Assembly: GCA_958296235.1 (NCBI GenBank)
Contig: OY282457.1
Coordinates: 3,095,338-3,159,337, forward strand
Reading direction: 5' to 3'
Length of the DNA stretch: 64,000 bases
Source: an uncultured Candidatus Binatia bacterium
GTDB taxonomy: Bacteria; Desulfobacterota; Binatia; Bin18
The position numbers and the translations under genes are program-made. Shown piece after piece: positions 3,451 to 19,141 of the stretch. Position 1 is the first letter of the stretch. Each line of letters opens with the position of its first letter. Under the pieces are notes generated by a model that ran no database searches, was not told the origin of the DNA, and saw only the letters and a program-made list of their open reading frames with translations.

Positions 3451-3565
3451 ACTATCTCTCGGTCCGGGTGGCCGGGGGCACAACAAAGAGGACCAACAGG
3501 ACCACGAGCCCTGCGGGAATAAGCCACTCAGCCTGAAACGTTCCAGGGCGCGAGGGCAGCTACGG

Positions 3566-3707
3566 GACCGGGCGACCCTAGGACCGGGCCGCCACAGAAC
3601 CGGGCAACCCCAGGACCGGGCAACCCCAGGACCGGGCAACCATAGGGCCGGGCAACCCCAGAACCGGGCAACCACAGGGCCGGGCAACCACAGGGGGTTG
3701 CCCCTAC
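3566..3707. repeat. eight 16-bp tandem units ending in a palindrome
   Basis: Eight consecutive 16-bp units of the form RACCGGGCAACCMCAG run from 3566 to 3693 and end in GGGGTTGCCCCTAC, which is complementary to the last unit (GGGCAACC...GGTTGCCC). The same terminal palindrome recurs twice near 10670-10750. There are no spacers, so it is not CRISPR. The unit length is not a multiple of 3 and no gene covers it. Confidence 0.8.
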
Positions 3708-3712
3708 ATTTT

Positions 3713-3811
3713 GCTCCCTCTCCCCTTGAGGGAGAGGGCTGGGGTGAGGGGTCATCGGAACAGTCCCCTCTATACACCGCCCCCCTGCGCTGTCGGAAGC
3801 CGCCCCGCTCA
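3713..3811. repeat. ~100-bp repeat, left copy of an inverted pair
   Basis: These 99 bp are the reverse complement of 18958-19070, differing mainly by a 14-nt internal duplication in the right copy. The repeat contains the CTCCCTCTCCCCTTGAGGGA palindrome and a CGGAACAGTCCCCTCTATAC stretch. The two copies bracket the FHA/kinase/DGR-target island in opposite orientation. Confidence 0.8.
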
Positions 3812-3937
3812 CCCGCCCTACAGGTCCGCTTCCTCTGGCGGTCGCCCAGCAGAAACTTCTCCCTGCGCGGAAAGCGCTCCACCGTCGGCCCCAGCCAACG
3901 GCTGCCCAGTGCCTCTGTCATCTCCTCCTTCCTCCCC

Positions 3938-3968
3938 AAAAAATGCGACCAGGGGCCTCGCCCCCTGG
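3938..3968 (-). terminator. hairpin plus T-run downstream of DGR target 1
   Basis: Read on the minus strand after the stop of the FGE-like gene: CCAGGGG (3968-3962), loop, CCCCTGG (3955-3949), then GTCGCATTTTTT ending at 3938. The same arrangement follows the second FGE-like gene (16293-16324). It can act as an intrinsic terminator. In characterised DGRs a hairpin shortly after the variable region also promotes target recognition, so a double role is possible. Confidence 0.65.
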
Positions 3969-4001
3969 ACCCCCGGAGGTAAAGAGGTAAAGATTCACGA
4001 A

Positions 4002-5336
4002 CTAATCCAAACTCCGGGCAATGCGGAAGCCGAATCTGTAGCTCCGAAGGCCGGTGGAGTACCTGTAGCGGATAGCCGAGCGGCGGTTCCTCGGTCTGTC
4101 GAACCAGGAACCGCCGCGCAGGACACGACGACTACAATCCCCCCTTGTCCACGCCCGCCCGTTGCTCGGGGCCCCGGCGTAATTGGCATTCCAGCAATCC
4201 TCCACCCACTCATATACGTTCCCCGACATGTCATGTATGCCTAATTCATTGGCCTGCTTCTGTCCCACCGGATGCGTCTTCCCTTCGCTGTTCCTGACAT
4301 ACCACGCGACGGCATTCAGGTTGTCACTCCCCGCATACTCATACCCCCGGCTCTGCCGACCCCCCCGTGCCGCATATTCCCACTCCGCTTCGCTCGGCAG
4401 CCGATACCGCCCGCCCCCCGCATTCAGCTTGCGGAGAAATCCCTGGATGTCGTCCCAACTCACCCGCTCGACGGGACATTGGGCACAGCCTTGGAACCGG
4501 CTCGGGTTCGTCCTCATCACGGCTTCCCATAACTCTTGCGTCACTTCATATTTGCCGATCTCAAAGCTCCTCACCTCCACTTGATGCGCCGGCTTTTCAT
4601 CGTCATGACAATTGCTCTGCTCCCGCGTGCAGCCCATTGTAAAGCGCCCGCCCGGCGCCCGCACCATCTGTAATAATCTTCCATATTTTTCCGTCTGGGC
4701 CTGTTGCCGCGCTTCCGCCGCGCGTTGTTGTTCCGCTTGTTCCTGCAAGCGCTGCCGGGCGGCCCGCGCTGCGCTCACATGCCGCCCGGCGGGGTATTCT
4801 CGTACATACGCAGCATACCCTTCGGCGCTGTTGGTGCGCTCCGCTTCGGCATACGCCGCATCGTCCGCCCGCGCCACTTCTTGCGCTGCCTGCGCCTCTG
4901 CCGCCTGCGCCGCTTCTTGCGCCGCCCGCCCCAACTCCATCAATGCCGCCGCCTGCTCCTCTGTCACATACCCCGTCGCCTCCAGCCTCTTCGCCTTCTG
5001 CCACTCCCGAATCGCCTCTCGCGTTTGCGCCCCCGGCCCCCCGAACAGCCCGTCCACCGGCCCCGGCTCCTGCCCCACCGCCCCCAGCCCCCGTTGCACC
5101 AACCGCCGCGCCGCCCGGTCTAACCCCAACCCCGCTTCCAGACATTCTCGCGCCGCTGCCTCATACGCTCCCCCCGGATACTCCTCCAGGTACAGCCGCA
5201 TCTCCACGGCATCCTCACACACTACGCTTTGCCAAAAAACCTCCTCTACCTCCCGCGCTGTCTGCCCCCCGACCGGCCCCGCCCACAGCAGCGCGAGGAG
5301 TAACCCGGCTCCCCATCTCCGCATAGTCTCTGTCAT
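4002..5336 (-). CDS. secreted FGE-like (C-type-lectin fold) protein, DGR variable protein 1
   Basis: 444 residues from the ATG at 5336. Order: signal peptide (LLLALLWAGPVGGQ), helical region beginning REVEEVFWQSVVCEDAVEM, a peptidoglycan-binding-1-like segment (PGPVDGLFGGPGAQTREAI), an Ala/Glu/Gln-rich coiled coil, then an FGE-sulfatase/SUMF1 domain (GGRFTMGC, EVTQELWEAVM, YRLPSEAEWEYAARGG, GNVYEWVEDCW, RVLRGGSW). The catalytic Cys pair of true formylglycine-generating enzymes near the C-terminus is absent, so this is a binding scaffold rather than a sulfatase activator. The last ~40 residues match DGR variable regions (SWFDRPRNRRSAIRYRYSTG), with differences from the paralogue at 14752-16260 confined to a 72-bp core. 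It is transcribed away from the FHA/kinase genes and has its own MITE-bearing upstream region. Confidence 0.85.
   Translation of the reverse strand: MTETMRRWGAGLLLALLWAGPVGGQTAREVEEVFWQSVVCEDAVEMRLYLEEYPGGAYEAAARECLEAGLGLDRAARRLVQRGLGAVGQEPGPVDGLFGGPGAQTREAIREWQKAKRLEATGYVTEEQAAALMELGRAAQEAAQAAEAQAAQEVARADDAAYAEAERTNSAEGYAAYVREYPAGRHVSAARAARQRLQEQAEQQRAAEARQQAQTEKYGRLLQMVRAPGGRFTMGCTREQSNCHDDEKPAHQVEVRSFEIGKYEVTQELWEAVMRTNPSRFQGCAQCPVERVSWDDIQGFLRKLNAGGGRYRLPSEAEWEYAARGGRQSRGYEYAGSDNLNAVAWYVRNSEGKTHPVGQKQANELGIHDMSGNVYEWVEDCWNANYAGAPSNGRAWTRGDCSRRVLRGGSWFDRPRNRRSAIRYRYSTGLRSYRFGFRIARSLD
4032..4103 (-). other. DGR variable region (VR1) core
   Basis: 72-bp core of target 1. Compared with VR2 (16159-16230) it has 22 mismatches: 11 at codon position 1, 9 at position 2 and 2 at position 3. 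The flanks are identical: 37 bp on the 5' side from GGATTGTAGTCG to TCCTGG, and 30 bp on the 3' side from GGCTTCCGC through the stop codon. Every mismatch is compatible with an adenine in a common template. This is the expected product of adenine-specific mutagenic retrohoming. Confidence 0.85.
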
Positions 5337-5426
5337 GACGCCCTCTCTGGTGCTGTCACCTTCCTCGGATACATTTTTCTCACCCCTCATACCCCAGCCA
5401 CCCTCGTGGCTCAAGTTTGACCGATA

Positions 5427-5706
5427 GTGTCTCAGTTTGCCTTTTCCCCCTTCCCCCGCTGAGGACGTGTACTGCCCATTGTGTCGCCGGCCCCCCGGGC
5501 GGTCCGTCGGCCCCCTCACCCGGCCCTTCGACTTCGCTGGCGCTACGCTCAGGGTGAACGGAGGCCGTTCGTGCTGAGCGTAGCCCTGGAAGGGCGAAGT
5601 CGAAGCACCCTCGCCTCGCCCTGCGCCTCCTATTCCCTCCCCCCTGGAGGGGGAGGGTCAGGGTGGGGGGGCTGAGCCGGGGGAGGGAGATGCGAAACTG
5701 AGACAC
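5427..5706. mobile_element. MITE-like element with 12-bp terminal inverted repeats
   Basis: About 280 bp bounded by GTGTCTCAGTTT (5427-5438) and its exact complement AAACTGAGACAC (5695-5706). The sequence GACCG is found just outside on the left (5419-5423, three bases away) and on the right (5707-5711), a possible target duplication. Inside are REP-like palindromes (CCCTTCGACTTCGC..., CCCTCCCCCTGGAGG-type) and no gene. The element fills most of the 437-bp gap between the divergent DGR target 1 and the FHA operon, so the promoters of both must lie in its edges or flanks. Confidence 0.65.
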
Positions 5707-5773
5707 GACCGTCTGACCAGTTTACTATTATTTTCGTCGGGGCTACTATTTGCCGTGCAAAAGAGCTGCGCCC

Positions 5774-6205
5774 ATGTCTAAAATTCCCTGTGCCAGCATA
5801 GGACGGAGCAAGGCCGCGGCCATAACCATTGCGCATGAAACCGTGTCGCGTACGCACGCCGAAGTCATTCCCCTGACCGACGGGTGCGTCTATGTCACCG
5901 ACTGCGCCAGCCGTAACGGCACCTTTGTCAATGAAGACGGGCAATGGCGGCAGATACGCCAGGACTTTGCCGGGCCAGCCGCGCGGGTCCGATTCGGTGA
6001 TGTTGAGATGAGCGTTCGTGATCTGCTGACGGAAATCGCCCGCCGGCAAGGCTCCGCCGGAGCCGGAGCCAATGCCGGAGCGGCAAACGGGCCGGTCGCC
6101 GGCCAGCCGGTTGCCCGCCCGCCGGACAAACTCGACGCCAGTCAGGGCGTTGTGCGTAACCCCGAGACCGGCGAACCGATGCCGCTCGCCGACCAGAATC
6201 ATTAG
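5774..6205 (+). CDS. small FHA-domain protein
   Basis: 143 residues from the ATG at 5774. The N-terminal two thirds is a compact forkhead-associated domain with the phosphothreonine-binding signature in order: SIGRSKAAAITI (GR.. motif), ETVSRTHAEV (S.xH), DCASRNGTFVN (NG). A glycine/alanine-rich linker and a short tail (RNPETGEPMPLADQNH) follow. As first gene of the rightward cluster, 12 bp ahead of the ExbB-like gene, it is probably a cytoplasmic reader of phosphorylation by the kinase at 13403-14755. Confidence 0.85.
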   Translation: MSKIPCASIGRSKAAAITIAHETVSRTHAEVIPLTDGCVYVTDCASRNGTFVNEDGQWRQIRQDFAGPAARVRFGDVEMSVRDLLTEIARRQGSAGAGANAGAANGPVAGQPVARPPDKLDASQGVVRNPETGEPMPLADQNH

Positions 6206-6216
6206 AGAGAAGCAGC

Positions 6217-6975
6217 ATGAGCCAGAGAGGCACTGTTTTTGTAGGGGCGCTGCTGACCGGCCTTGTCCTGGTCGGCCTGCTGAGCTTCGTGCTGACTGAA
6301 GGGTTTTTTGCCGATTTCCTGCTTGACCGAAATACGCGGGCCATGCCATATCCGTTCACTATCCAGAACGTCATGTGGCTCGTGTTCTGTATCGGAGCCG
6401 GCGAACTGCTAGTGCGCTATCGTGAGACCGACCGGGAAATGCTGCAAATCCACAAAGGGCTGTTGCCCGAAGATGAGGCCACCCTGCTGAGAAAGCAGGA
6501 CTTGGGCGGCCTGTACAAACGGGTTAAAGAAACCCGGGCAGACGGGGCCTATTTCATGCAACGCCTGCTGGCCCGCTGTATGCTGCAATTTCAGGTCAGT
6601 GGCTCCATTGACAAAGCCAATAATCTGTTCAACTCCAGCCTGGAATTGTTCCAGCATGAGATTGAACTGAAATACAACGCCCTGCGCTATGTGGTCTGGC
6701 TCATCCCGACCCTGGGCTTTATCGGCACGGTGGTCGGCATAGCCCTGGCTCTGAGCGACGCCGGCAATGCCCCGGACTATCAGGACCCGGCCCTGCTCAA
6801 GCAGCTCACCCAAAGCCTGGGCGTAGCCTTTTACACCACCCTGCTGGCCCTGTTGCAGTCCGCGGTTTTGATGTTTGTGCTGCATGTTGTGCAAGGCAAG
6901 GAAGAAACCACCCTGAACACAATCGGGCAATACTGCCTGGATAACCTGATTAACCGCCTGTATGAAACCGACTAG
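6217..6975 (+). CDS. MotA/TolQ/ExbB-like membrane channel protein
   Basis: 252 residues. TM helices near residues 7-27 and 45-63, a long cytoplasmic helical domain with charged residues (residues 65-150), then two helices near 163-190 (VVWLIPTLGFIGTVVGIALA) and 205-230 (GVAFYTTLLALLQSAVLMFV). The IPTLGFIGTVVGIA.A and A.YTTL.. segments are the hallmark pore helices of MotA/TolQ/ExbB proteins, which form pentamers around a single-TM MotB/TolR/ExbD partner and use the proton or sodium gradient. The likely partner is 12247-12999. Good ribosome binding site (GAGAAGCAGC) overlaps the intergenic 11 bp. Confidence 0.82.
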   Translation: MSQRGTVFVGALLTGLVLVGLLSFVLTEGFFADFLLDRNTRAMPYPFTIQNVMWLVFCIGAGELLVRYRETDREMLQIHKGLLPEDEATLLRKQDLGGLYKRVKETRADGAYFMQRLLARCMLQFQVSGSIDKANNLFNSSLELFQHEIELKYNALRYVVWLIPTLGFIGTVVGIALALSDAGNAPDYQDPALLKQLTQSLGVAFYTTLLALLQSAVLMFVLHVVQGKEETTLNTIGQYCLDNLINRLYETD

Positions 6976-6984
6976 GAGGGGATC

Positions 6985-7716
6985 ATGCCCATAAAACGTG
7001 ACGCCGATGGCAACATCGTTGAGGAAAAAACGGAAAGAGCCGGCTCGTTCGGACGGGAAGCCCAGCCCGAAGACCCGACCGTAGGCAAGGGACCTGTGGA
7101 GGGCCGGCAGCCGGCTGTTGATGCCGGCCCCCGTGCCAACATTGCCCCACAGTCCGGTTATGAAGCCGATACCATACTCGCCAGGTCCAAACCGGCTGGC
7201 GGCCAGGCACAAGCCGCCCCAGCCGGCGCAGCCGACACAGCCCCGGAGAGCCGCACGCGAATCTACCGGCCCGGCGCCAAAAAAAGCCCGGCTCCCGAAC
7301 GACCGCCCGAGCAATCATCGGGTGTGGAACAAGCCGTCGAACCACCGGCAGCCAGCGCAATGGACGACCCGCCGGTCGGCTGGCTGGTAGTTATCCAGGG
7401 TCCGGGTCAGGGCAACGTCGTGACCATCGGCAATGGCTCGAACTCGCTCGGTCGTGATCCCAGCGAGCGTATCTGCGTTGATTTTGGTGATGAGATGATT
7501 TCCCGTCGCGGCCATACCACCATTACCTATGATCCCAGGGGCAAGAAGTTCTACATCCAGCACGGCGGCGGGACAAACCTGACGTATATGGAAGACAGCC
7601 CTGTGCTGTTGCCAACCGAACTCCAGGGGTTCTCCAAAATACAGCTTGGCGAGACCGTGCTGCTGTTTGTCCCCTTGTGCGGGGAGCGGTTCGATTGGGC
7701 AGAGTATGAACAATAG
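6985..7716 (+). CDS. FHA-domain protein with disordered N-terminus
   Basis: 243 residues. The first ~125 residues are Pro/Ala/Gly-rich with no predicted structure; the C-terminal ~115 form an FHA-like domain (GWLVVIQGPGQGNVVTIG, NSLGRDPSERICVDFGDEMI, SRRGHTTITYDP, then NLTYMEDSPVL and ETVLLFVPLCGERF). The second S-x-x-H position is kept as SRRGH and the NG-motif is replaced by GGTNLTYM, so phosphopeptide affinity may differ. It starts 9 bp after the ExbB-like gene, and its last 11 bp overlap the PP2C gene start, which implies coupled translation. Confidence 0.82.
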   Translation: MPIKRDADGNIVEEKTERAGSFGREAQPEDPTVGKGPVEGRQPAVDAGPRANIAPQSGYEADTILARSKPAGGQAQAAPAGAADTAPESRTRIYRPGAKKSPAPERPPEQSSGVEQAVEPPAASAMDDPPVGWLVVIQGPGQGNVVTIGNGSNSLGRDPSERICVDFGDEMISRRGHTTITYDPRGKKFYIQHGGGTNLTYMEDSPVLLPTELQGFSKIQLGETVLLFVPLCGERFDWAEYEQ

Positions 7717-8728
7717 TGCCGCCGGCTCTTCCAGCACAGCCGGGTCGTCCTGGAATGCGGTGGAACACTGGACCGCCGGCGATCAGATTCAGGGCGGGCG
7801 TGACTATCAGGAAGACGAGTTTGCCATCACCTTGCTGACGGGCGATCGGTCGGCCGGCGACCGCCTGCTGCTCGTGCTGGCAGACGGCATGGGCGGCCAC
7901 GCCGGTGGAAAGGTCGCCAGCCAGACAGCGGTACAGGCTTTTTGGGACGGTTTCCGCCAGCCGGCGACCGATATGGCCGCCCATCTCAACGCCGGCGTTG
8001 ATGCAGCCAACGAGGCGGTGCGGACCAAACAGCAGGCCGAGCCGGCCCTGTATGAAATGGGCACTACCCTGGTGGCGGCTCTGGTCCGGGACGGGCGCCT
8101 GTATTGGGCCAGCGTGGGCGATTCCCTGCTGTGGGTGTTCAGAGACGGTGCGTTGAAGCGGCTGAACGCGGATCACTCCATGCGTCCGCAACTGCTGTAT
8201 CTGGCCGAAATCGGGCGTATGACCGAGGAAGAAGCCCTGCACGACCCCAGGGGGCATCAGCTCCGGTCTGCCATTATGGGAGAAGAGATTCCGTTGCGCG
8301 ACATTGCAGCCGACGGCTATCCACTTGAGGCTGACGATGTGGTGCTGCTGGCCAGCGACGGCCTGGAAACCCTGTCCGAAGCCGACTTGGCCGACCTGAT
8401 AACGCAGTACGGCAACGACGCGCGAGCGCTGGTAGCTGCCCTGCTTGCGGCTGTCACCGCGGCCGGCATAGACCATCAGGACAACACCACCGTGCTGGCC
8501 TATCGAGTTGGCGACGAACAACACGGCCTGAGCGCCACCCTGGCCCAGATGGAAGCGCCCACCACGCTGGCCAAACAGGCGGGTGCAAAACCCCTACCGT
8601 CCAGGATTATCATCCGTGAGGGGGCCTTCCGCCAACCGACTCCAGAAACCCAACCGACCCAACCGACCCTAAAGACCCCAAATATCTGGACAAAAATCAA
8701 GACATACATGTCCGGCCCCGAGCGATAG
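7706..8728 (+). CDS. PP2C-type Ser/Thr protein phosphatase
   Basis: 340 residues from the ATG at 7706, overlapping the preceding FHA gene by 11 bp. PP2C metal-binding motifs occur in order: GRDYQEDEFAI, LVLADGMGGHAGGK, WASVGDSLLWVF, LLASDGLET and DHQDNTTVLAYR. The C-terminal ~65 residues are a Pro/Thr-rich tail. It would remove phosphates added by the transmembrane kinase encoded downstream at 13403-14755. Kinase, phosphatase and FHA readers together form a complete phospho-signalling module. No membrane segment is seen, so it should be cytoplasmic. Confidence 0.9.
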   Translation: MNNSAAGSSSTAGSSWNAVEHWTAGDQIQGGRDYQEDEFAITLLTGDRSAGDRLLLVLADGMGGHAGGKVASQTAVQAFWDGFRQPATDMAAHLNAGVDAANEAVRTKQQAEPALYEMGTTLVAALVRDGRLYWASVGDSLLWVFRDGALKRLNADHSMRPQLLYLAEIGRMTEEEALHDPRGHQLRSAIMGEEIPLRDIAADGYPLEADDVVLLASDGLETLSEADLADLITQYGNDARALVAALLAAVTAAGIDHQDNTTVLAYRVGDEQHGLSATLAQMEAPTTLAKQAGAKPLPSRIIIREGAFRQPTPETQPTQPTLKTPNIWTKIKTYMSGPER

Positions 8729-8736
8729 GAGCATCT

Positions 8737-10401
8737 GTGAAGATATTGACCGCGATAGCCTTGACCCTTGTCCTGTTATCCGTCCCGGCCGGAGCGGATG
8801 ACCCACCCGTTCCCGCCGCTCCCACTGATCCGGTAGCTCCCGCTACCCCTACTGACCCGCCCGCTCCCGCTACCCCCACCACTCCCCGCCCGGACTTCTC
8901 CACGATCCAAAAACATCTGGTCGTGGTCAAAGACGGACTTGAGAGCGCCAACCAATCTCCAGGTTTCAGCATCAGCGATCAGGGCCATATTGTGACCTAT
9001 GCCGGCGAGTTGCGGGACAGCCAGTCGTATCTGGTCGAGACTGCCGGGGGCCAGTTTTCAGCCACCAGAATCAAAGCCGACGAGACCACTGGCGTGTGGA
9101 TTCTCCAACTGTCCGACGCCGGTCACGGCCTGACCGGGCTGCCATTCGCCAGCACCGCGCTGCAAGCCGCGGCCCCGCTGCACGCAGTCAACTTCAATCC
9201 GTCCGGCTCCGAGCGGTTTACGTCGGTCCCCGGCAGTGTCACCCAACTCACGACGACCGAGCAGGGGCAGATGATCCGGCATAACGCCCTGTTCAGTGTG
9301 GCCTCAGCCGGCACACCGTTGTTGAACCGCTGCTTTCAGGCGGTTGGCGTCAACCTGCTGGAGGAAGAAGGGCGCTTCTTCTCGCGTCCAGTTGACCCGA
9401 CCCAAAAAGGCAGCGCCCTGTCCCTCGCGTCTGCTTCCCTGGACAGCCTACTGACCGGGCTTGGCCTGTCCCTGCCCGCGGCAGGCTCCGAATGCCTGAG
9501 TCTGGAAGAAGAACGAGAACAGGAACGAGAACAGGCCCGCCAGGCCCAGGAGGCCGAACGGCAAAGAGAACAGGAAGCCGCGGCCCAGCGCGTCAACGAA
9601 GCCGAGGAAGAAGCCCAACGCAAAGTGGAGCAAACCGAGCAGGAAAAGCAGGCCGCATTGCAAAGGCAACGAGAAGAAGCCGACCGCAGAGAAGCCGAGT
9701 TGCAAAGGGAGAAGGACGAAGCCCTGCGCAGAGAACAGGAAGCCGAGGAAGAAGCCCAACGCAAAGTGGAGCAGACCGAGCAGGAAAAGCAGGCCGCATT
9801 GCAAAGGCAACGAGAAGAAGCCGACCGCAGAGAAGCAGCCCTGCGCAGAGAACAGGAAAAAACCGAGCAGCGACAACGTCGCATTCTGCTGGTCGGTTCC
9901 GTCATTGGCGGGCTGGCGCTGCTGGGCGTGGCGTGGCTCATGCGCCGTAAACAAAAACGACTACAGACCACAGAGCAGGAAAAGCAGCACATCGAACAGG
10001 AAAAACAAAACATCTCGGGCGCTCTGAACCGGGCGCAGTCCGAACTGTTCCAGGCCGAGGAACAGAACCGGCTGCGCAGCACTGCGCCGGACGTTTTTAT
10101 TGAGGGCGAAACCCCGCCTATTGCCCTCAAAATTCCTGGCGCTGCGCTGGTAGAGCGGGCCGGCGCTATTGTTGGCAGAAGTCCATCAGCTTCGGTATTC
10201 GTCATCAATCACGAACAGATATCCCGACAACATTTCCGGCTCAGCCTGGTGTCGCAGCAAGTCATGATAGAGGATCTGGGTTCGACCAATGGCACCAGTG
10301 TTGATGGCGTAGCATTGGAACCGGGGCAGCAAAGGCCGGTCGGGGAGGGCAGCCGGCTCGGGCTTGGCGACCTGGAACTGACGCTGCACATAGGCGGGTG
10401 A
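8737..10401 (+). CDS. membrane protein: degenerate trypsin-like domain, coiled coil, TM, FHA
   Basis: 554 residues from a GTG start with RBS (TAGGAG). Layout: signal peptide (1-20), Pro/Thr/Ala linker (20-52), trypsin-like domain (~55-250), Gln/Glu/Arg coiled coil with duplicated 40-residue blocks (~255-375), TM helix (ILLVGSVIGGLALLGVAWLM, ~380-400), cytoplasmic coil and FHA domain (GRSPSASVFVIN, ISRQHFRL, EDLGSTNGTSV). Compared with its paralogue at 10798-12219, the catalytic histidine region reads VTYAGELR instead of LTNRHVTE and the serine loop reads SVASAGTPLLN instead of NSGNSGGPLF, so it is a pseudoprotease and probably a ligand sensor. It transmits an envelope signal to a phosphopeptide-binding domain inside the cell. 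Confidence 0.8.
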   Translation: MKILTAIALTLVLLSVPAGADDPPVPAAPTDPVAPATPTDPPAPATPTTPRPDFSTIQKHLVVVKDGLESANQSPGFSISDQGHIVTYAGELRDSQSYLVETAGGQFSATRIKADETTGVWILQLSDAGHGLTGLPFASTALQAAAPLHAVNFNPSGSERFTSVPGSVTQLTTTEQGQMIRHNALFSVASAGTPLLNRCFQAVGVNLLEEEGRFFSRPVDPTQKGSALSLASASLDSLLTGLGLSLPAAGSECLSLEEEREQEREQARQAQEAERQREQEAAAQRVNEAEEEAQRKVEQTEQEKQAALQRQREEADRREAELQREKDEALRREQEAEEEAQRKVEQTEQEKQAALQRQREEADRREAALRREQEKTEQRQRRILLVGSVIGGLALLGVAWLMRRKQKRLQTTEQEKQHIEQEKQNISGALNRAQSELFQAEEQNRLRSTAPDVFIEGETPPIALKIPGAALVERAGAIVGRSPSASVFVINHEQISRQHFRLSLVSQQVMIEDLGSTNGTSVDGVALEPGQQRPVGEGSRLGLGDLELTLHIGG

Positions 10402-10797
10402 AGAGGATTGGGAGCGGGGCTTTTGTCTTTCCCTCTCCCCTGGAACGTGTGATGCAAATTCAGTTGTTCAGCGGCCCAGGGCGCTGTTTCACCCTCACCT
10501 TACCCCCGCTCCCAGCGGGAGTGAGGCTCCTTTCTTTCCCTCTCCCCTGGAGGGAGAGGGTGGCCCTGAGCTTGTCGAAGGGCCGGGTGAGGGGGCGGAC
10601 GGACCGTCTGAGGGCTTGCGACACAATGGGTATCACACGTCTTGGGAGGGGTGGCCCGAAGGGCCGGGCAACCACAGGGGGTTGCCCCTACTGTTTGCCC
10701 CCTCGCTGGGACAACCGGGGCTGGGCAACCACAGGGGGTTGCCCCTACATTTTATTCCCTCGCCCTTGGGGGGGTGAGTAGGGCGAAGGGCAGAGCC
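10402..10797. repeat. intergenic REP cluster
   Basis: 396 bp without a gene. It holds a CCCTCTCCCCTGGAGGGAGA palindrome near 10538-10558, a GCCCTGAGCTTGTCGAAGGG element near 10562-10582, and two copies of GGGCAACCACAGGGGGTTGC (near 10667 and 10725), the same palindrome that closes the 16-bp tandem array at 3566-3707. No obvious promoter could be singled out. A ribosome binding site-like GGGCGAAGGG precedes the next ATG. Confidence 0.7.
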
Positions 10798-12219
10798 ATG
10801 AATCACCGTATATTATGCTGTCTGACGCTTGTTTGGCTGGCCGGCTGGGCCGCGCCGCTGTATGGATTTGAGTTGAGTCGGGTTGAGCGTAGCGTAGTGC
10901 GTGTCATCAACCAGACCCGGAGCGGTGTGGGAACGGGGTCGGGGACGGTCATCAACGCCAACGGCGATGTGCTGACCAACCGGCATGTGACTGAGGGTAG
11001 CAACAATCTGTTCGTAATTTCCGAATTTTCCAATGGAGAACAACCAGCCCGGATTGTGTGGGAATCAGAGGAAAAGGACTTGGCCCTTATTCGGGCGTTG
11101 GGCCTGGGCCTGCCGGCCGCCACGCTCTTCTCCGGGGAACCTGAAAAAGGAGCCCCGGTGTTTGCCTTGGGCTATCCGGGTGCGGCTGACCTTGGTTCGC
11201 TGGCCTTGGATGCCACGCTGACGGATGGGCTGCTCGGTCGTGTCTTCCAGAGTTCAAGGGGATGGAATGTCACAATTTTGCAGCACAACGCCGAAATCAA
11301 CTCTGGAAACAGCGGCGGACCGCTCTTCGACGACTGTGGGCGGGTCATCGGCGTGAATACCGCGGGACCGGCTGAAACCGGAACACGGGGAATCAACTGG
11401 AGTTCTCATATCAAGGAGGCCATCGCTCTTCTGCGGGCAAGAGGTATCGAGTTTTCATCGGAGGCTTCCCCATGCGTGGCCGCCGCGCCCAGTTCTTCGG
11501 GCGCTGGGGTTGACGAACAAGCCAGGGCGCAGGCCGAACAGGCCACCCAAGCCGTAGAAGATGTCAGGAGCGGGATCAATTCCGCCACCCAGACCGCACA
11601 GGACGCCCGGACACAAGCCGAACAGGCCACCCAGGCGGTGGAGGACGTCCGGGGTGGGGTCGAGTCTGCCACCCAGACCGCGCAGGACGCCCAGGCGCAG
11701 GCCGAGCAGGCTGCGCAGGCCGTGGAAGAAGCCAGGTCGGTCGGCCGGCTGACCAATACCCTGGTGGCCCTGGTTGCCGTGGTCACGCTGGTGGCCTTGG
11801 GGCTGGCGCTCCGAAAGCCCCGCCAGGAGATCGTTCGGGTTGCCGGACAAATAGCCGCGCCGCTCAGCCGGCTGGTCCAGTCCGTCCGACGCAAAAAGCC
11901 GGCTGTCGCCCTGACCGGCTTTGATGCCCAGGGCCGGCCGGTTACGCTCATGTTGGGCCGGGCCGACCTGGACACCCAGCAGGGCGGCTTTACGGTCGGG
12001 CGGCATCCGTTATTGGTTGATCAGGTGCTTGAGGGGGAACGGTTGTCAAAGCGCCACGCCCGGTTTTCGGGCAGTAACGGGTCCATCTTTGTTGAAGACC
12101 TCAATTCGAGCAACGGCACCAGCGTCAACGGGACGGTCTGTCCGCCCTTTCAGCCCATGCAGATACAACCCGGCGACATGATTGATGTCGGCGATATTGC
12201 TCTGCGCGTCTCGTCCTGA
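10798..12219 (+). CDS. membrane-anchored trypsin-like protease with cytoplasmic FHA domain
   Basis: 473 residues from the ATG at 10798; the frame is open further upstream but only through repeat DNA. Signal peptide (LLCCLTLVWLAGWAAPLYG-like), then an HtrA/trypsin-2-type domain with an intact triad: His63 (LTNRHVTE), Asp94 (EKDLALI) and Ser172 (NSGNSGGPLF). Next is an Ala/Gln coiled coil with 30-residue repeats (EQATQAVEDVRSG...), a TM helix at ~317-338 (LVALVAVVTLVALGLALR), and a C-terminal FHA domain (FTVGRHPLL, LSKRHARFSG, EDLNSSNGTSVNG). The protease would sit in the periplasm and the FHA domain in the cytoplasm. The pair of active and inactive proteases suggests regulated cleavage or competitive ligand sensing. 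Confidence 0.88.
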   Translation: MNHRILCCLTLVWLAGWAAPLYGFELSRVERSVVRVINQTRSGVGTGSGTVINANGDVLTNRHVTEGSNNLFVISEFSNGEQPARIVWESEEKDLALIRALGLGLPAATLFSGEPEKGAPVFALGYPGAADLGSLALDATLTDGLLGRVFQSSRGWNVTILQHNAEINSGNSGGPLFDDCGRVIGVNTAGPAETGTRGINWSSHIKEAIALLRARGIEFSSEASPCVAAAPSSSGAGVDEQARAQAEQATQAVEDVRSGINSATQTAQDARTQAEQATQAVEDVRGGVESATQTAQDAQAQAEQAAQAVEEARSVGRLTNTLVALVAVVTLVALGLALRKPRQEIVRVAGQIAAPLSRLVQSVRRKKPAVALTGFDAQGRPVTLMLGRADLDTQQGGFTVGRHPLLVDQVLEGERLSKRHARFSGSNGSIFVEDLNSSNGTSVNGTVCPPFQPMQIQPGDMIDVGDIALRVSS

Positions 12220-12246
12220 GTACCGCCCGCCACAGGAGCATCGCCC

Positions 12247-12999
12247 ATGAGAGCACGCAGCCGGGAAATCAATATCTTCAGCATGTCGGCCCTGGACCTG
12301 TTCGCCTCGGCCCTGGGCGCGTTCATTCTGATTGCCGTGCTCCTGTTTCCCTACTTTCCGAATACCGGCGACTCCCCGGAGCGGGTGGCCGAAGTCCGGG
12401 CACAACTGGAACAGGTCCAAAGTCAGTTGCAAGCCTCCCAAGCGGAACTGCAAGCCTCCCAAGCCCAGCTTGGCGCGTGCGAAACGCAGCGACAAGAGGT
12501 ACAGGCCGCCCTGGACGCGTGTGAGGAACAGCTTGCGTCATCTGCGTCACAAGATGCCCTGGGCGCGTGTGAGAGCCGCAATCAGCAGTTGGAGGCGAAC
12601 CTTGAGACGTGTCAGGCCCAGGCCCGGAAGAAATTTCTGTTAGTCCTCATGAGTTGGGGCACTGCGGATGATATTGACCTGCATGTGATAGACCCTGCCG
12701 GGCAGGAGTTCTTTTACCAAAGCAGGTCATTCTCAGGTTCTCGGGCCAAGCTGGAAGAGGACAATACCCGCGGCCCCGGCAATGAAATCTGGCTGCATCC
12801 TGCTGCCGAGCCCGGCCCCTATCGAATATACTATAAATATTTTGGGCGCATATCCAATGGTGGGGTGCGGGTGCGCGGAGCCGTCCTGACGCCGGACGGG
12901 AGGACTCCGTTACCGAATACAACGCTCAGAAGAGAAGGCCAAAAGCCCCTCATCGCCACTGTTACGGTTGATTCCGAGGGCAATATGCGTGTGTCGTGA
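12247..12999 (+). CDS. single-TM ExbD/MotB-like protein with DUF2135-like C-terminal domain
   Basis: 250 residues. Short cytoplasmic N-terminus, then one TM helix (SALDLFASALGAFILIAVLL, ~16-38) containing an Asp at its cytoplasmic edge, as in MotB/TolR/ExbD-type stator subunits. A periplasmic coiled coil with Cys-containing repeats (LGACETQ, LDACEEQ, LGACESR, LETCQAQ) follows. The C-terminal domain (LVLMSWGTADDIDLHVIDPA ... GPYRIYYKYFG) resembles YfaP/DUF2135 beta-sandwiches rather than the OmpA peptidoglycan-binding domain. I infer that it pairs with the ExbB-like protein at 6217-6975. The four periodically spaced cysteines could crosslink a dimer. Confidence 0.7.
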   Translation: MRARSREINIFSMSALDLFASALGAFILIAVLLFPYFPNTGDSPERVAEVRAQLEQVQSQLQASQAELQASQAQLGACETQRQEVQAALDACEEQLASSASQDALGACESRNQQLEANLETCQAQARKKFLLVLMSWGTADDIDLHVIDPAGQEFFYQSRSFSGSRAKLEEDNTRGPGNEIWLHPAAEPGPYRIYYKYFGRISNGGVRVRGAVLTPDGRTPLPNTTLRREGQKPLIATVTVDSEGNMRVS

Positions 13000-13099
13000 A
13001 GATAAGGGGCGTGTGCCGTATTGCTCCCTCTTTCCTGTTGGTGATAATTGACCGTGTAGGCGCTTCTCAACGCTGCTCCGAATACTGGAGAAAGCTTGT

Positions 13100-13363
13100 A
13101 TGAGTGTGGAACTGCTCGGAGTCCTGATAGCGGTGGTGGCGGTAGGGGCGACCCTGGCCGGGTTGATGCTGAACGGTCAACGGGCCATTCGGACCGAGTT
13201 GACGGAACTCCGCCGGGAGTTGGCGGCCCAGCGTCAGTATTTTGACGAGCGATTCACGGCCCTGAAGCAGCAAATCGCCGAACTGTGCGAGCGCATGGCG
13301 CATCTGGACGGCCTGCTGGACGGCCTGCGCGAGGCCATCGCCATTCAGCGCGGCGCGGCCTGA
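13100..13363 (+). CDS. small single-TM coiled-coil protein (paralogue of 2934-3359)
   Basis: 87 residues: TM helix (LLGVLIAVVAVGATLAGLML), a short basic linker (NGQRAIRTEL), and a coiled coil containing one RQYFDERFTAL block and the ending LDGLLDGLREAIAIQRGAA. This is the unexpanded form of the protein at 2934-3359, and the two are very similar at DNA level. It lies 39 bp before the kinase gene and is probably cotranscribed. Unknown function; a membrane-bound accessory of the kinase complex is the simplest guess. Confidence 0.75.
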   Translation: MSVELLGVLIAVVAVGATLAGLMLNGQRAIRTELTELRRELAAQRQYFDERFTALKQQIAELCERMAHLDGLLDGLREAIAIQRGAA

Positions 13364-13402
13364 CGCCGGCTGGCAAATCCGACCAAGCATAAAGGATAAT
13401 CT

Positions 13403-14755
13403 ATGGAGCATCTGAACGCGTTGCCAGGCGGGACACAGCTCGCGGACTACGAAGTCGTGGACGTGTTGGGGGCAGGCGGGTTTGGGATCACGTACCGGGC
13501 GTGGGACACCAAGCTGGAGAAATACGTGGCCCTCAAGGAATATCTGCCCCGGGACTTTGCCACGCGCACGGCCACCTACACCGTGGTGCCGACCTCCCCG
13601 ACAGACCAAACCGACTACAAATGGGGGTTAGAGCGGTTTCTGGACGAGGCGCGCACCCTGGCGCGGTTCGATCATCCGCATCTGAACAAAGTGTATCGCT
13701 TTTTCGAGACCAACGGCACGGCCTACCTGGTCCTGGAGTACGTAGAGGGCCAAACCCTCAGCCACCTGCTCAGCACACATCCCACCCTCCCGGATACCCA
13801 CCTGCAACAGATTATCGCCGACATATCAAGCGGGCTCGAAGAAGTGCATGCGGCGGGCTATGTGCATCGCGACATCAAGCCGAGCAACATCATGCTGCGC
13901 GGGGACGGGAGCGCGGTGTTGCTGGACTTTGGGGCGGCGCGCCAAGCGGTCGGGCAGCGGTCAAAGAGCCTCACATCAATCCTGACACCAGGCTATGCGC
14001 CGATTGAACAGTACGACACCAAGGCAGAAGACGTCGGGCCGTGGAGTGACCTGTATGCGCTGGGGATGGTGGCCTATCGGGGTGTGAGCGGGTTGCGGGA
14101 CACCGACTTGCCGGACGCGGTAACGCGGGCCCGCACCCAGCGCAAGGGCGGCCCCGACCTGACCCCGGCGGTCGAGGTAGGAAAAGGGGCCTATGCCGCC
14201 GACTTCCTCAAAGCGATTGACTGGGCAATTCGGGTCAACGAAGAAGAACGGCCTCAGACGCTTGCGGCATGGCTCATGACCCTCTCCCCCGGCTGGGGCG
14301 AGGCGGCCCCCTCCCCGAGTCCGGTCCCGGCCGCTGCCTCGCCGGCGAAGGCTATCGCCGACTCGGGCGGGAGCGGTCCGCGTGGCTGGGTGTCCAAAGT
14401 CGCGCTGGCTGTGGTTGGGGTGGCGATCATCGGAGCAGGGCTGTGGGTCATGTATCCGGGTATGAATATGGTGAAAAAATCTGCCGTCAATCCGCCCGAG
14501 CCGCCGGAAGAAAGACCGGAAGAAAGACCGGAAGAAAGACCGGAAGAAAGACCGGAAGAAAGACCGGAACCAGTCCCGGTCACGCCTGTTCCTGTCGTCC
14601 AAGCCGAGCCGCCCGGCGATGCCCTTGCCGATTGGCGGAACGCGCAACAAACCGACACGTCGGACGCCTACCGCGCGTTCGTGGCGCGGCACCCGGGCAG
14701 TCCATTGCGCCGACTGGCAGAAAAGAAATTGGCGGAGAAGGGACCGACGCGATGA
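13403..14755 (+). CDS. transmembrane Ser/Thr protein kinase (Hanks type)
   Basis: 450 residues. N-terminal kinase domain: glycine loop LGAGGFGITYRA, catalytic Lys45 (YVALKEYL), HRDIKPSN with Asp157, DFG Asp175 (LLDFGAARQ), and an activation segment with several Ser/Thr residues followed by TPGYAPIEQY. A TM helix at ~330-350 (KVALAVVGVAIIGAGLWV) separates it from a short periplasmic tail with five PEER repeats (14504-14563) and a sporulation-repeat-like end (YRAFVARHPGSPLRRLAEKK). Its stop overlaps the start of the DGR target gene (ATGA), so kinase and variable protein are made together. It likely phosphorylates FHA partners in the same cluster, opposed by the PP2C phosphatase. Confidence 0.92.
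   Translation: MEHLNALPGGTQLADYEVVDVLGAGGFGITYRAWDTKLEKYVALKEYLPRDFATRTATYTVVPTSPTDQTDYKWGLERFLDEARTLARFDHPHLNKVYRFFETNGTAYLVLEYVEGQTLSHLLSTHPTLPDTHLQQIIADISSGLEEVHAAGYVHRDIKPSNIMLRGDGSAVLLDFGAARQAVGQRSKSLTSILTPGYAPIEQYDTKAEDVGPWSDLYALGMVAYRGVSGLRDTDLPDAVTRARTQRKGGPDLTPAVEVGKGAYAADFLKAIDWAIRVNEEERPQTLAAWLMTLSPGWGEAAPSPSPVPAAASPAKAIADSGGSGPRGWVSKVALAVVGVAIIGAGLWVMYPGMNMVKKSAVNPPEPPEERPEERPEERPEERPEERPEPVPVTPVPVVQAEPPGDALADWRNAQQTDTSDAYRAFVARHPGSPLRRLAEKKLAEKGPTR
14504..14563 (+). repeat. five 12-bp tandem repeats in kinase tail
   Basis: CCGGAAGAAAGA repeated five times exactly, encoding PEER units just after the kinase TM helix. This forms a stiff, charged spacer of slippage-prone length. Confidence 0.9.
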
Positions 14756-16260
14756 GCGAGCCGACAAGGGGAGGGGCCGGCCTTCCCATGCGCGGGCGGT
14801 GGGGACTTGGCAGGGCCTGGGCGCGGGCGGCGTGTCTCCTCGCGCTGCTGTGGGCGGGGCCGGCCGGGGGGCAGACAGCGGAGGAGGTAGAAGAAGTCTT
14901 CTGGCAAAGCGTAGTGTGCGAGGATGCCGTGGAGATGCGGCTGTACCTGGAGGAGTATCCGGGAGGAACCTACGAAGCGGAGGCGCGGGCGTGTCTGGAA
15001 GCGGGGTTGGGGTTGGATCAGGCGGCGCGACGGTTGGTGCAACGGGGGCTGGCGGCGGTGGGGCAGGCGCCGGGGCCGGCGGACGGGCTGTTCGGGGGGC
15101 CGGGGGCGCAAACGCGGGAGGCGATTCGGGAGTGGCAGAAGGCGAAGAGGCTGGAGGCGACGGGGTATGTGACAGGGGAGCAGGCGGCGGCATTGATGGA
15201 GTTGGGGCGGGCGGCGGCGCAAGAAGCGGCGCAGGCGGCAGAGGAGCAGGCAGCGCAAGAAGCGGCGCGGGCGGACGATGCGGCGTATGCCGAAGCGGAG
15301 CGCACTAACACTGCCGAAGGGTATGGGGCGTACTTGGCAGCGTACCCAACGGGGCAGCACGCGGCAACGGCGCGGGAGCGACAAGCGGCGCGCGAGGAAG
15401 CCGAACGGTGGCGTGCCGGGCGAACCTTCCGGGATTCCCTGCGCTCGGGGGGCACAGGGCCGGAGATGGTAGTAGTGCCGGCGGGGACCTATCAGATGGG
15501 GTCGCCGTCGTATGAAGGGGGGCGGGATGACGATGAAGGGCCGGTGCATCAGGTGACGATAGCGGAGCCGTTTGCTGTCGGGGTGTACGAAGTGAGGCGG
15601 GAGGAATACGCGCAGTTCGTGGAGGCGACGGGATATGCAGGGGGGAATGCGTGCTGGACCTACGAGGGCGGGGAGTGGGCAGATCGGGCTGGGCGGAGTT
15701 GGCGGGATGCGGGGTATCGGCAAAGCGGGCAGCATCCGGTGGTATGCGTGAATTGGGAGGACGCGCGAGCCTACGCCGCATGGCTATCCCGGCAAACCGG
15801 CCAGGGCTACCGTTTACTGAGCGAAGCGGAATGGGAATACGTGGCGCGGGGAGGCACGGCGACAGCGCGGTACTGGGGGGAGGGAGAGACAGGGCAGTGC
15901 CGTCATGCGAACGGGGCGGATGCGACGGCGAAGCGAGAACATCCCGACTGGACGACAGTTGCGTGTACCGATGGCCACGCCCGTACGGCACCAGTGGGGA
16001 GCTATGCAGAGAACGGGTATGGGCTATACGACGTCTTGGGGAACGTATGGGAGTGGGTGGCGGACTGTTGGCATGAGAGTTATGAGGGAGCGCCGAGAGA
16101 TGGGCAAGCGTGGACGGGAGGGGATTGTAGTCGTCGTGTCCTGCGCGGCGGTTCCTGGAGCGACGTCCCGGGGTTCCTCCGCTCGGCTATCCGCCTCAGG
16201 TACACCGCCGGCAGTCGGTACGTCAGTAACGGCTTCCGCATTGCCCGGAGTTTGGATTAG
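14752..16260 (+). CDS. secreted FGE-like (C-type-lectin fold) protein, DGR variable protein 2
   Basis: 502 residues. Signal peptide (ACLLALLWAGPAGGQ), the same EVEEVFWQSVVCEDAVEM region, PG-binding-1-like segment (PGPADGLFGGPGAQTREAI) and Ala-rich coil as the protein at 4002-5336, then an FGE-sulfatase domain: VVVPAGTYQMGSPS, VHQVTIAEPFAVGVYEVRRE, CVNWEDARAYAAWLSR, YRLLSEAEWEYVARGG, GNVWEWVADCW, RVLRGGSW. The central part of the FGE domain is longer than in protein 1 and clearly diverged, while the last ~140 bp are again nearly identical apart from the variable core. The FGE catalytic cysteines are missing. Exported and translationally coupled to the kinase, it is a good candidate for the variable ligand-binding arm of the signalling complex. 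Confidence 0.88.
   Translation: MSEPTRGGAGLPMRGRWGLGRAWARAACLLALLWAGPAGGQTAEEVEEVFWQSVVCEDAVEMRLYLEEYPGGTYEAEARACLEAGLGLDQAARRLVQRGLAAVGQAPGPADGLFGGPGAQTREAIREWQKAKRLEATGYVTGEQAAALMELGRAAAQEAAQAAEEQAAQEAARADDAAYAEAERTNTAEGYGAYLAAYPTGQHAATARERQAAREEAERWRAGRTFRDSLRSGGTGPEMVVVPAGTYQMGSPSYEGGRDDDEGPVHQVTIAEPFAVGVYEVRREEYAQFVEATGYAGGNACWTYEGGEWADRAGRSWRDAGYRQSGQHPVVCVNWEDARAYAAWLSRQTGQGYRLLSEAEWEYVARGGTATARYWGEGETGQCRHANGADATAKREHPDWTTVACTDGHARTAPVGSYAENGYGLYDVLGNVWEWVADCWHESYEGAPRDGQAWTGGDCSRRVLRGGSWSDVPGFLRSAIRLRYTAGSRYVSNGFRIARSLD
16159..16230 (+). other. DGR variable region (VR2) core
   Basis: 24 codons, from AGC after GGTTCCTGG to AAC before GGCTTCCGC. Thirteen codons differ from VR1, and all but two of the 22 changed bases are at codon positions 1 or 2. 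Several positions show T against G or C against T, which no single substitution from a non-A ancestor explains simply but an A in the template does. Encoded residues (S.DV..G FL, L, TA, S, YVSN) are the surface positions that vary in known C-type-lectin DGR targets. Confidence 0.85.
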
Positions 16261-16292
16261 CTCGTGAATCTTGGCTTCTTTACTTCAGGGGG

Positions 16293-16324
16293 GACCAGGG
16301 GCGTGGCCCCTGGTCGCATTTTTT
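16293..16324 (+). terminator. 10-bp hairpin plus T-run after DGR target 2
   Basis: GACCAGGGGC (16293-16302), GTG loop, GCCCCTGGTC (16306-16315), then GCATTTTTT. It is a strong intrinsic terminator for the kinase/target operon. The same structure follows DGR target 1, and a hairpin at this distance after the variable region is a known DGR target feature. Confidence 0.75.
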
Positions 16325-18728: not shown

Positions 18729-19141
18729 ATTCCTTACCTCCCCTTGGATTCTTGGAATAGAAACCTTTGTAGGACAGTCTCTCTCCGTTTGTCAACCGAA
18801 AGGAGACCGAGCCAGGCTGTGGAGCGGGCGTTCCTTCCCTCCTGGGAGCGCGGGCATCTTGCCCGCCCAGGGGCAGGCTGGAAGCCTGCACTCCCAGGGA
18901 AAGGGGCCAGCTTCATGGCCATCACCCGTGTCAGGAGCGAGGGCGCAAGAGGGAAAATGAGCGGGGCGGCTTCCGACAGCGCAGGGGAGCGGTGTATGGG
19001 GGGCGGTGTATAGAGGGGACTGTTCCGATGACCCCTCACCCCAGCCCTCTCCCTCAAGGGGAGAGGGAGCAGAAGGGGGAGAGGGCGCAAAAGGGAAAAG
19101 TTGCGTTGACTTTTCGGGCCGGGGGGCGGTGTGTGGGTTGT
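18729..19141. repeat. intergenic repeat region
   Basis: About 410 bp without a convincing gene. It contains a GCGGGCATCTTGCCCGCC palindrome near 18850, an AGGCTGGAAGCCTGCACTCC unit near 18870, and the right copy of the inverted ~100-bp repeat (18958-19070). Open frames across it consist of repeat translation only. Confidence 0.7.
18958..19070. repeat. ~100-bp repeat, right copy of the inverted pair
   Basis: Reverse complement of 3713-3811 with one 14-nt internal duplication (two copies of GCGGTGTAT). It closes the accessory island on the right. Confidence 0.8.

Follow-up and report, generated by a model that had tools for sequence, protein, structure and literature searches.

In a 64,000-nucleotide stretch of DNA from an uncultured Candidatus Binatia bacterium (assembly GCA_958296235.1, contig OY282457.1, positions 3,095,338 to 3,159,337; hereafter the window), we found two genes, A and B, whose 3' ends carry the fingerprint of the variable region (VR) of a diversity-generating retroelement (DGR). 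These genes are very probably what is left of a decayed DGR, the cassette of which has probably been lost here while its targets survive, likely in a frozen state. The DGR origin of the two variable regions is strongly supported, and because neither a reverse transcriptase (RT) nor a template repeat (TR) was found, we read A and B as orphan targets of a probably lost DGR and not as parts of a present one. The genome that holds the window (G000) is a single contig of 4,624,001 bases, 98.45% complete, and was considered within a set of seven genomes of its genus (G000 to G006), several of which are drafts. The features on which the argument turns are the following.

4002..5390, minus strand: gene B (P0103, 462 aa), with a PG_binding_1 and a formylglycine-generating enzyme (FGE)-sulfatase domain (Pfam) and the variable region at its 3' end
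4032..4103, minus strand: variable-region core of gene B, 72 nt
14752..16260, plus strand: gene A (P0001, 502 aa), with a PG_binding_1 and an FGE-sulfatase domain (Pfam) and the variable region at its 3' end
16120..16158, plus strand: 39-nt flank before the core of gene A, identical to gene B
16159..16230, plus strand: variable-region core of gene A, 72 nt
16231..16260, plus strand: 30-nt flank after the core of gene A, up to the stop codon, identical to gene B
~3921-3826, minus strand: probable truncated avd, an ATG and about 32 Avd-like codons, the frame running open into the repeat
about 3690-3811 (3709..3811 listed), minus strand: dispersed repeat that starts at 3811, just after the avd fragment, with a copy at 18958-19074

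The two cores align without gaps. They differ at 22 of their 72 nt, with 11, 9 and 2 mismatches at codon positions 1, 2 and 3, the counts that an earlier note on this DNA had reported. Of the identical flanks that it described, the 30 nt after the core were confirmed, whereas the block before the core measures 39 nt and not 37 nt. This 3' end stands out, because in a gapless comparison the 156 nt upstream of the identical block match at only 92 positions. The identity of the flanks alone is nevertheless weak evidence and no proof of homing, since a 390-nt stretch close to the 5' ends is likewise 92% identical between A and B, a similarity that points to other exchange between these paralogues.

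The A and B cores differ at template adenines, as judged with templates from other sources. A congener, G004, holds an intact DGR (L020, on contig G004:C177) in which the variable region of an FGE target gene, avd, the RT and the template all lie within about 2 kb. Its Avd passes the model NF033474 (99.4 bits, cut-off 80), while its RT matches RVT_1 and carries GNLTSQ and YVDD, motifs for which we assume the customary meaning; its own VR/TR pair shows 24 mismatches, 18 of them at TR adenines. This template, which played no part in defining the A/B mismatches, has 29 adenines among the 72 sites, and 17 of the 22 mismatches fall on them (p=3e-5; p=0.0016 at codon positions 1 and 2 only). Upon searching a viral contig collection with a 27-base template pattern, derived from the G004 template together with the orphan-tail codons, we obtained a single match, L207 (IMGVR_UViG_3300044670_003238), at the 3' end of a DGR-type RT gene (7551-8831, minus strand) whose product is 70% identical to the G004 RT. 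With the L207 template, 18 of the 22 mismatches lie on adenines (28 of 72 sites, p=1e-6), as do 10 of the 13 in the part of the core outside the 27-base pattern (p=5e-4), and its AAA codon explains one of the two third-position mismatches. Overall, one or both templates have an adenine at 20 of the 22 mismatch sites. The claim that all mismatches fit an adenine template was thus borne out for 17 (G004) and 18 (L207) of the 22, but not for the rest. The L207 RT gene sits at a contig edge, among other reading frames that look partly phage-like by eye, and the examined part of that contig yielded no repeat of at least 40 nt and hence no variable region.

Variability between paralogues and congeners is uneven over codon positions and sites. 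A third FGE gene of G000, C3 (L003, L010; G000:C1:1125942-1126143), also ends in a VR-like tail (RGGSQFNSPRDLRSANRLWNATVRRNRNVGFR). Together with A, B, L025, L026, L028 and VR4, it forms a set of seven VR-type genes, defined by 32-aa tails and DNA similarity to A, which leaves out L027 (one codon longer, compared separately) as well as L030 to L033 and L150, whose tails are longer. These seven genes vary at 28/28 template-adenine sites and at 20/44 others, whereas the control, a conserved FGE gene represented by one orthologue from each of the seven genus genomes, varies at 1/28 and 9/44, with 7 of its 10 variable sites at codon position 3. All 21 pairwise tests within the set, which are not independent of each other, gave p<0.05 with either template; when restricted to codon positions 1 and 2, this held for 19/21 pairs with G004 and 21/21 with L207. 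The G000 tails L011 and L013, which belong with L149, L151 and L152 to more distant genes of the genus, differ from A and B mainly at template-adenine sites. They lie in one 1310-codon frame (G000:C1:665088-668024) with two FGE domains, each with a VR-like tail at its end and separated by tandem repeats of ~60 residues, so that one VR-like stretch stands in mid-protein.

The codons bear a further fingerprint. Of the four-fold codons that A, B and C3 have at template-Asn columns, 11/11 end in C or T, compared with 134/690 elsewhere in these genes. The third bases of all 39 template-Asn codons (37/39 C or T) were dropped as evidence because the conserved FGE gene looks similar (C8 T3 G2 of 13), and only the four-fold codons were kept. 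In the wider family, a 32-aa tail is present in 106 of the best 120 homologues of gene A, with variation at the same columns; the other 14 were left out of the tail analysis. Across the 106 tails, template-Asn columns have an entropy of 3.38 bits and the remaining core columns one of 1.04, and K, Q, E, M or W make up 51/1378 residues at template-Asn columns against 4733/23850 in the up to 225 preceding residues. Their count at template-Asn columns lies above zero; column 7, which is AAA in the L207 template, permits residues of this type. Columns 9 and 18 hold R, G or W in 84/106 and 90/106 tails, as NGG derived from AGG by first-base mutation would give; the G004 template differs at some columns, with CAG and not AGG at column 9.

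We found no machinery to go with these targets. A full-genome search for an RT and a template, called for by the earlier note, found neither in G000; this absence is one half of what the note would have taken as refuting its reading. The RVT_1 profile (PF00078) had no match there, although the same search finds matches in 5/7 genus genomes, and the G004 RT as a query gave no G000 match at E<=1e-10. A DNA search of G000 with the gene A tail returned no template, its seven matches being A, B, C3 and four of 15-17 nt, and template patterns gave 0 matches in G000 and 0 in the window; one of these pattern searches covered 16 genomes of the family. Hence, our reading moved from a live DGR to a relic: the DGR interpretation of the earlier note stands for the origin of the variable regions, given two real templates, the conserved-FGE control and the 106 tails, but the assembled genome does not contain the retroelement that it implied. 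On the basis of length, sequence and characteristic features, L017, L018, L019 and L022, which are RTs of G001 to G003, were judged group-II-intron-like, L023 and L024 (G001) and L021 (G006) were judged other RTs, and all were set aside; none of G001, G002, G003 and G006 contains a match to the G004 RT at E<=1e-10.

What does adjoin gene B is a short frame on the same strand that starts 80 nt past its stop codon. In a tblastn comparison with the G004 Avd, 15/20 residues are identical (E=7e-6 when only the window is searched, E=0.003 genome-wide), and a search of the seven genus genomes for Avd (E<=0.1) hit two places only, this fragment at 3921-3826 and the intact G004 gene. Its sole NCBIfam match is NF033474, the DGR Avd model (E=0.0017), and, judged from these resemblances, it is probably a truncated avd. 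The resemblance to Avd is over by 3826, and the dispersed repeat starts at 3811; alignments of this repeat stand at 99% (I4) and 93% (I6). A query of window positions 3690-3925 gave at least 42 matches in the genome, itself included (40 of 162 candidates scored). The repeat is possibly an element resembling a miniature inverted-repeat transposable element (MITE) or a repetitive extragenic palindrome (REP). A piece of 40-63 nt (window about 3690-3752) recurs at no fewer than about 40 places in the genome, and downstream of the avd fragment the window carries tandem 16-nt units (GGGCAACCCCAGGACC-like) at 3554-3697.

We suggest that the original cassette would have run in the order target B, avd, reverse transcriptase, template, with B as the cassette target and A as a remote target that may have been served in trans. 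The dispersed repeat would then have either caused or followed a deletion that left the truncated avd beside it at gene B, and the variable regions of A and B would no longer change. The proteins, presumably exported, may use a C-type-lectin-like FGE fold whose variable surface would bind ligands, and this binding could perhaps feed the neighbouring cluster of kinase, forkhead-associated (FHA) and phosphatase genes.

Alternatively, the DGR might be alive elsewhere, with an RT and a template on an unassembled plasmid or missed during assembly, and A and B might still be rewritten in trans. RTs related to that of the G004 DGR do occur on plasmids (13 of 72,556 records at E<=1e-40, all at <60% identity) and in phages (7 of 50,697), and activity in trans has been reported for Thiohalocapsa PB-PSB1 (PMC10907252). 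Furthermore, at the non-adenine sites of the L207 template A and B are identical at 40/44 positions, which fits fairly recent homing. We nevertheless consider a live DGR unlikely, because the RT and TR searches came back empty from a single contig of such completeness and because the Avd-like gene next to B is cut short.

A further possibility is that the targets arrived already diversified by horizontal transfer without their machinery, the scrap of avd having come along with gene B. This would agree with the presence of a DGR of this kind in only one of the seven genus genomes, with FGE genes bearing gene-A-like VR tails in five of them (G000 to G004), and with the breadth of the family, as 6823 of 7997 scored candidate proteins match gene A at E<=1e-3. 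Against it, loci syntenic to those of A and B exist in G004 and G002, and genes of the A/B type were therefore likely present before the species split. In G004, the piece remaining at the syntenic B locus resembles the N-terminal half of a B-type target gene, and the counterpart of gene A, although it ends in a VR-like tail, is probably interrupted, since its open frame spans just 153 codons. Between gene B and its syntenic counterpart in G002 (a draft genome in 540 contigs), differences occur at 16-20 of 28 template-adenine sites and at 6-9 of 44 others, the range depending on the placement of a one-codon gap; this concentration at template-adenine sites asks for activity after the split. Both genes lie in genomes without a detected DGR RT. 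If they are true orthologues, some diversification would have taken place after the species split and the machinery would have been lost later. We accordingly regard arrival in a pre-diversified state as improbable.

That no DGR was ever involved, and that gene conversion of the 3' ends combined with diversifying selection on binding-site residues produced the pattern, is hardly credible: exchange between A and B does happen, as their shared 5' stretch attests, and selection would likewise favour codon positions 1 and 2, but it would have to be reconciled with variable sites that match the adenines of two outside templates even within these codon positions, with four-fold third bases that are C or T in genes that prefer G, with Arg, Gly and Trp alternating at two columns as NGG would give, and with an Avd-like fragment in the cassette position.

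Several observations weigh against a decayed DGR. Gene conversion could partly explain the identical flanks. Two of the 22 A/B mismatches lie on no adenine of either template, and even in the intact G004 pair 6 of the 24 VR/TR mismatches are not at A. Adding the five 32-aa tails L011, L013, L149, L151 and L152 to the set of seven leaves 28/28 template-adenine sites variable but raises the others to 36/44; the pattern of L149 is less clear, L151 has no template-adenine excess against A or B, and L152 shows an excess against B only. The interdependence of the pairwise tests belongs here as well, as does the base of 11 codons for the four-fold test. The avd-like fragment is short, scores 18.7 bits with NF033474, below the cut-off of 80, and had no match in a Pfam scan. 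Avd together with an intact cassette occurs in 1/7 genus genomes, several of them drafts, and the syntenic B gene of G002 has no detected avd fragment, so that just one genome points to a cassette residing at this locus.

The case belongs to an already published type, as orphan DGR targets and DGR loci eroded by repeats have both been described before. In Treponema denticola, PMC4891356 describes isolates that keep target genes without RT genes and TRs, and its authors read such targets as remnants of core DGR components; A and B resemble these orphan targets, while the Avd-like stump and dispersed repeat adjoining a target, and the architecture of FGE plus peptidoglycan-binding domains, set the present case apart. 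In Thiohalocapsa PB-PSB1, MITE-like repeats have at some loci taken the place of the template or the RT gene, and some targets have FGE-type C-type-lectin domains, according to PMC10907252. The likeness lies in the repeat-eroded loci and the target domains, and the difference in that other DGR components remain there and 8/9 loci still vary, whereas here no DGR RT was found. For cyanobacteria, PMC7517822 suggests removal of the machinery after selection; it likewise describes variable proteins remote from any RT and a degraded cassette, but the cyanobacterial all3226 has remnant TR-VR homology, and here no template was found. A further comparison is the G004 DGR, which shares the FGE-type target, the tail motif and the position of avd after the target, and differs in that its cassette is intact and does not share a contig with the syntenic A/B locus.

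It is possible, although we hold it as a tentative idea, that the genus uses DGRs as throw-away engines, which are acquired, diversify surface binding proteins and are then shed, the variants being kept as a frozen repertoire beside signalling genes. The signature of such a habit would be the one seen here, VR-type FGE genes in 5/7 genomes (G000 to G004) and a DGR in one. Because DGRs are commonly found through their RT, genomes that have lost it are easily passed over, even though it shaped their proteins. In the present case, the codon fingerprint (A-derived NNC, NGG and NCC between fixed codons) marked the orphan targets, and a pattern built from this fingerprint and the template of one congener led to a DGR template in a publicly available contig. 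This suggests an RT-free route to fossil DGRs, and to asking how long diversified proteins outlive their machinery.

The genes A and B enclose a cluster of signalling genes, as follows.

6217..14755, plus strand: signalling cluster between A and B (Pfam: MotA/ExbB, FHA, PP2C, two Trypsin_2+FHA proteins, Ser/Thr kinase)

One protein of this cluster has no Pfam match; G004:C270 contains matches to much of the cluster, and G002:C344 to a part. By its coordinates, the Ser/Thr kinase gene at 13403-14755 ends in a stop codon that overlaps the start codon of gene A (ATGA), and the likely true start of gene B lies near 5336 by inspection. The cluster is likely the context of the binding proteins A and B. 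As both N-termini read as hydrophobic by eye, we infer from the sequences that A and B are exported binding proteins tied to signalling. In both proteins the variable region sits at the C-terminus of the C-type-lectin/FGE-type domain, PF03781 extending to residue 499/502 in A and 459/462 in B. Among solved structures, the FGE domain of A is nearest to PvdO by sequence (5hha, E=6.6e-57), although A does not reach the PvdO model NF051459 (234 of 500 bits), and it also matches 2y3c, the Treponema denticola variable protein 1 (E=1.3e-8). The likeness to PvdO and formylglycine-generating enzymes (5hha, 6s07) is thus one of the FGE-sulfatase domain by sequence. The earlier note had the catalytic cysteines of FGE lacking, and an alignment of A to 6s07 indeed shows no Cys at the columns of the pair in LCHESYC, with a variable tail in A instead; that these cysteines of 6s07 are the conserved catalytic or copper-binding pair is our assumption. 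A G+C-rich hairpin, noted by eye, lies just 3' of the stop codons of A (window 16264-16320), B (3940-4000) and the G004 target (L020 615-690); those after A and B are followed by a run of T. The hairpin is a candidate terminator or DGR hairpin.

The nearest other protein to that of gene A shares 84% identity with it across 61% of the query. A caspase-like domain (PF00656) is fused to the FGE domain in 23 of the best 120 homologues (P0005 and P0056 among them), many of which also have PG_binding_1. Among the relatives surveyed, the best 80 of 536, four contain, in the DNA examined, a match to DGR-type RTs at E<=1e-8, one at only ~30% identity and one as a fragment only. The locus L110, from a metagenome-assembled genome of an uncultured member of the Thiotrichaceae, combines FGE genes that have very similar variable tails with a fragment matching DGR-type RTs, and is perhaps another eroded DGR.

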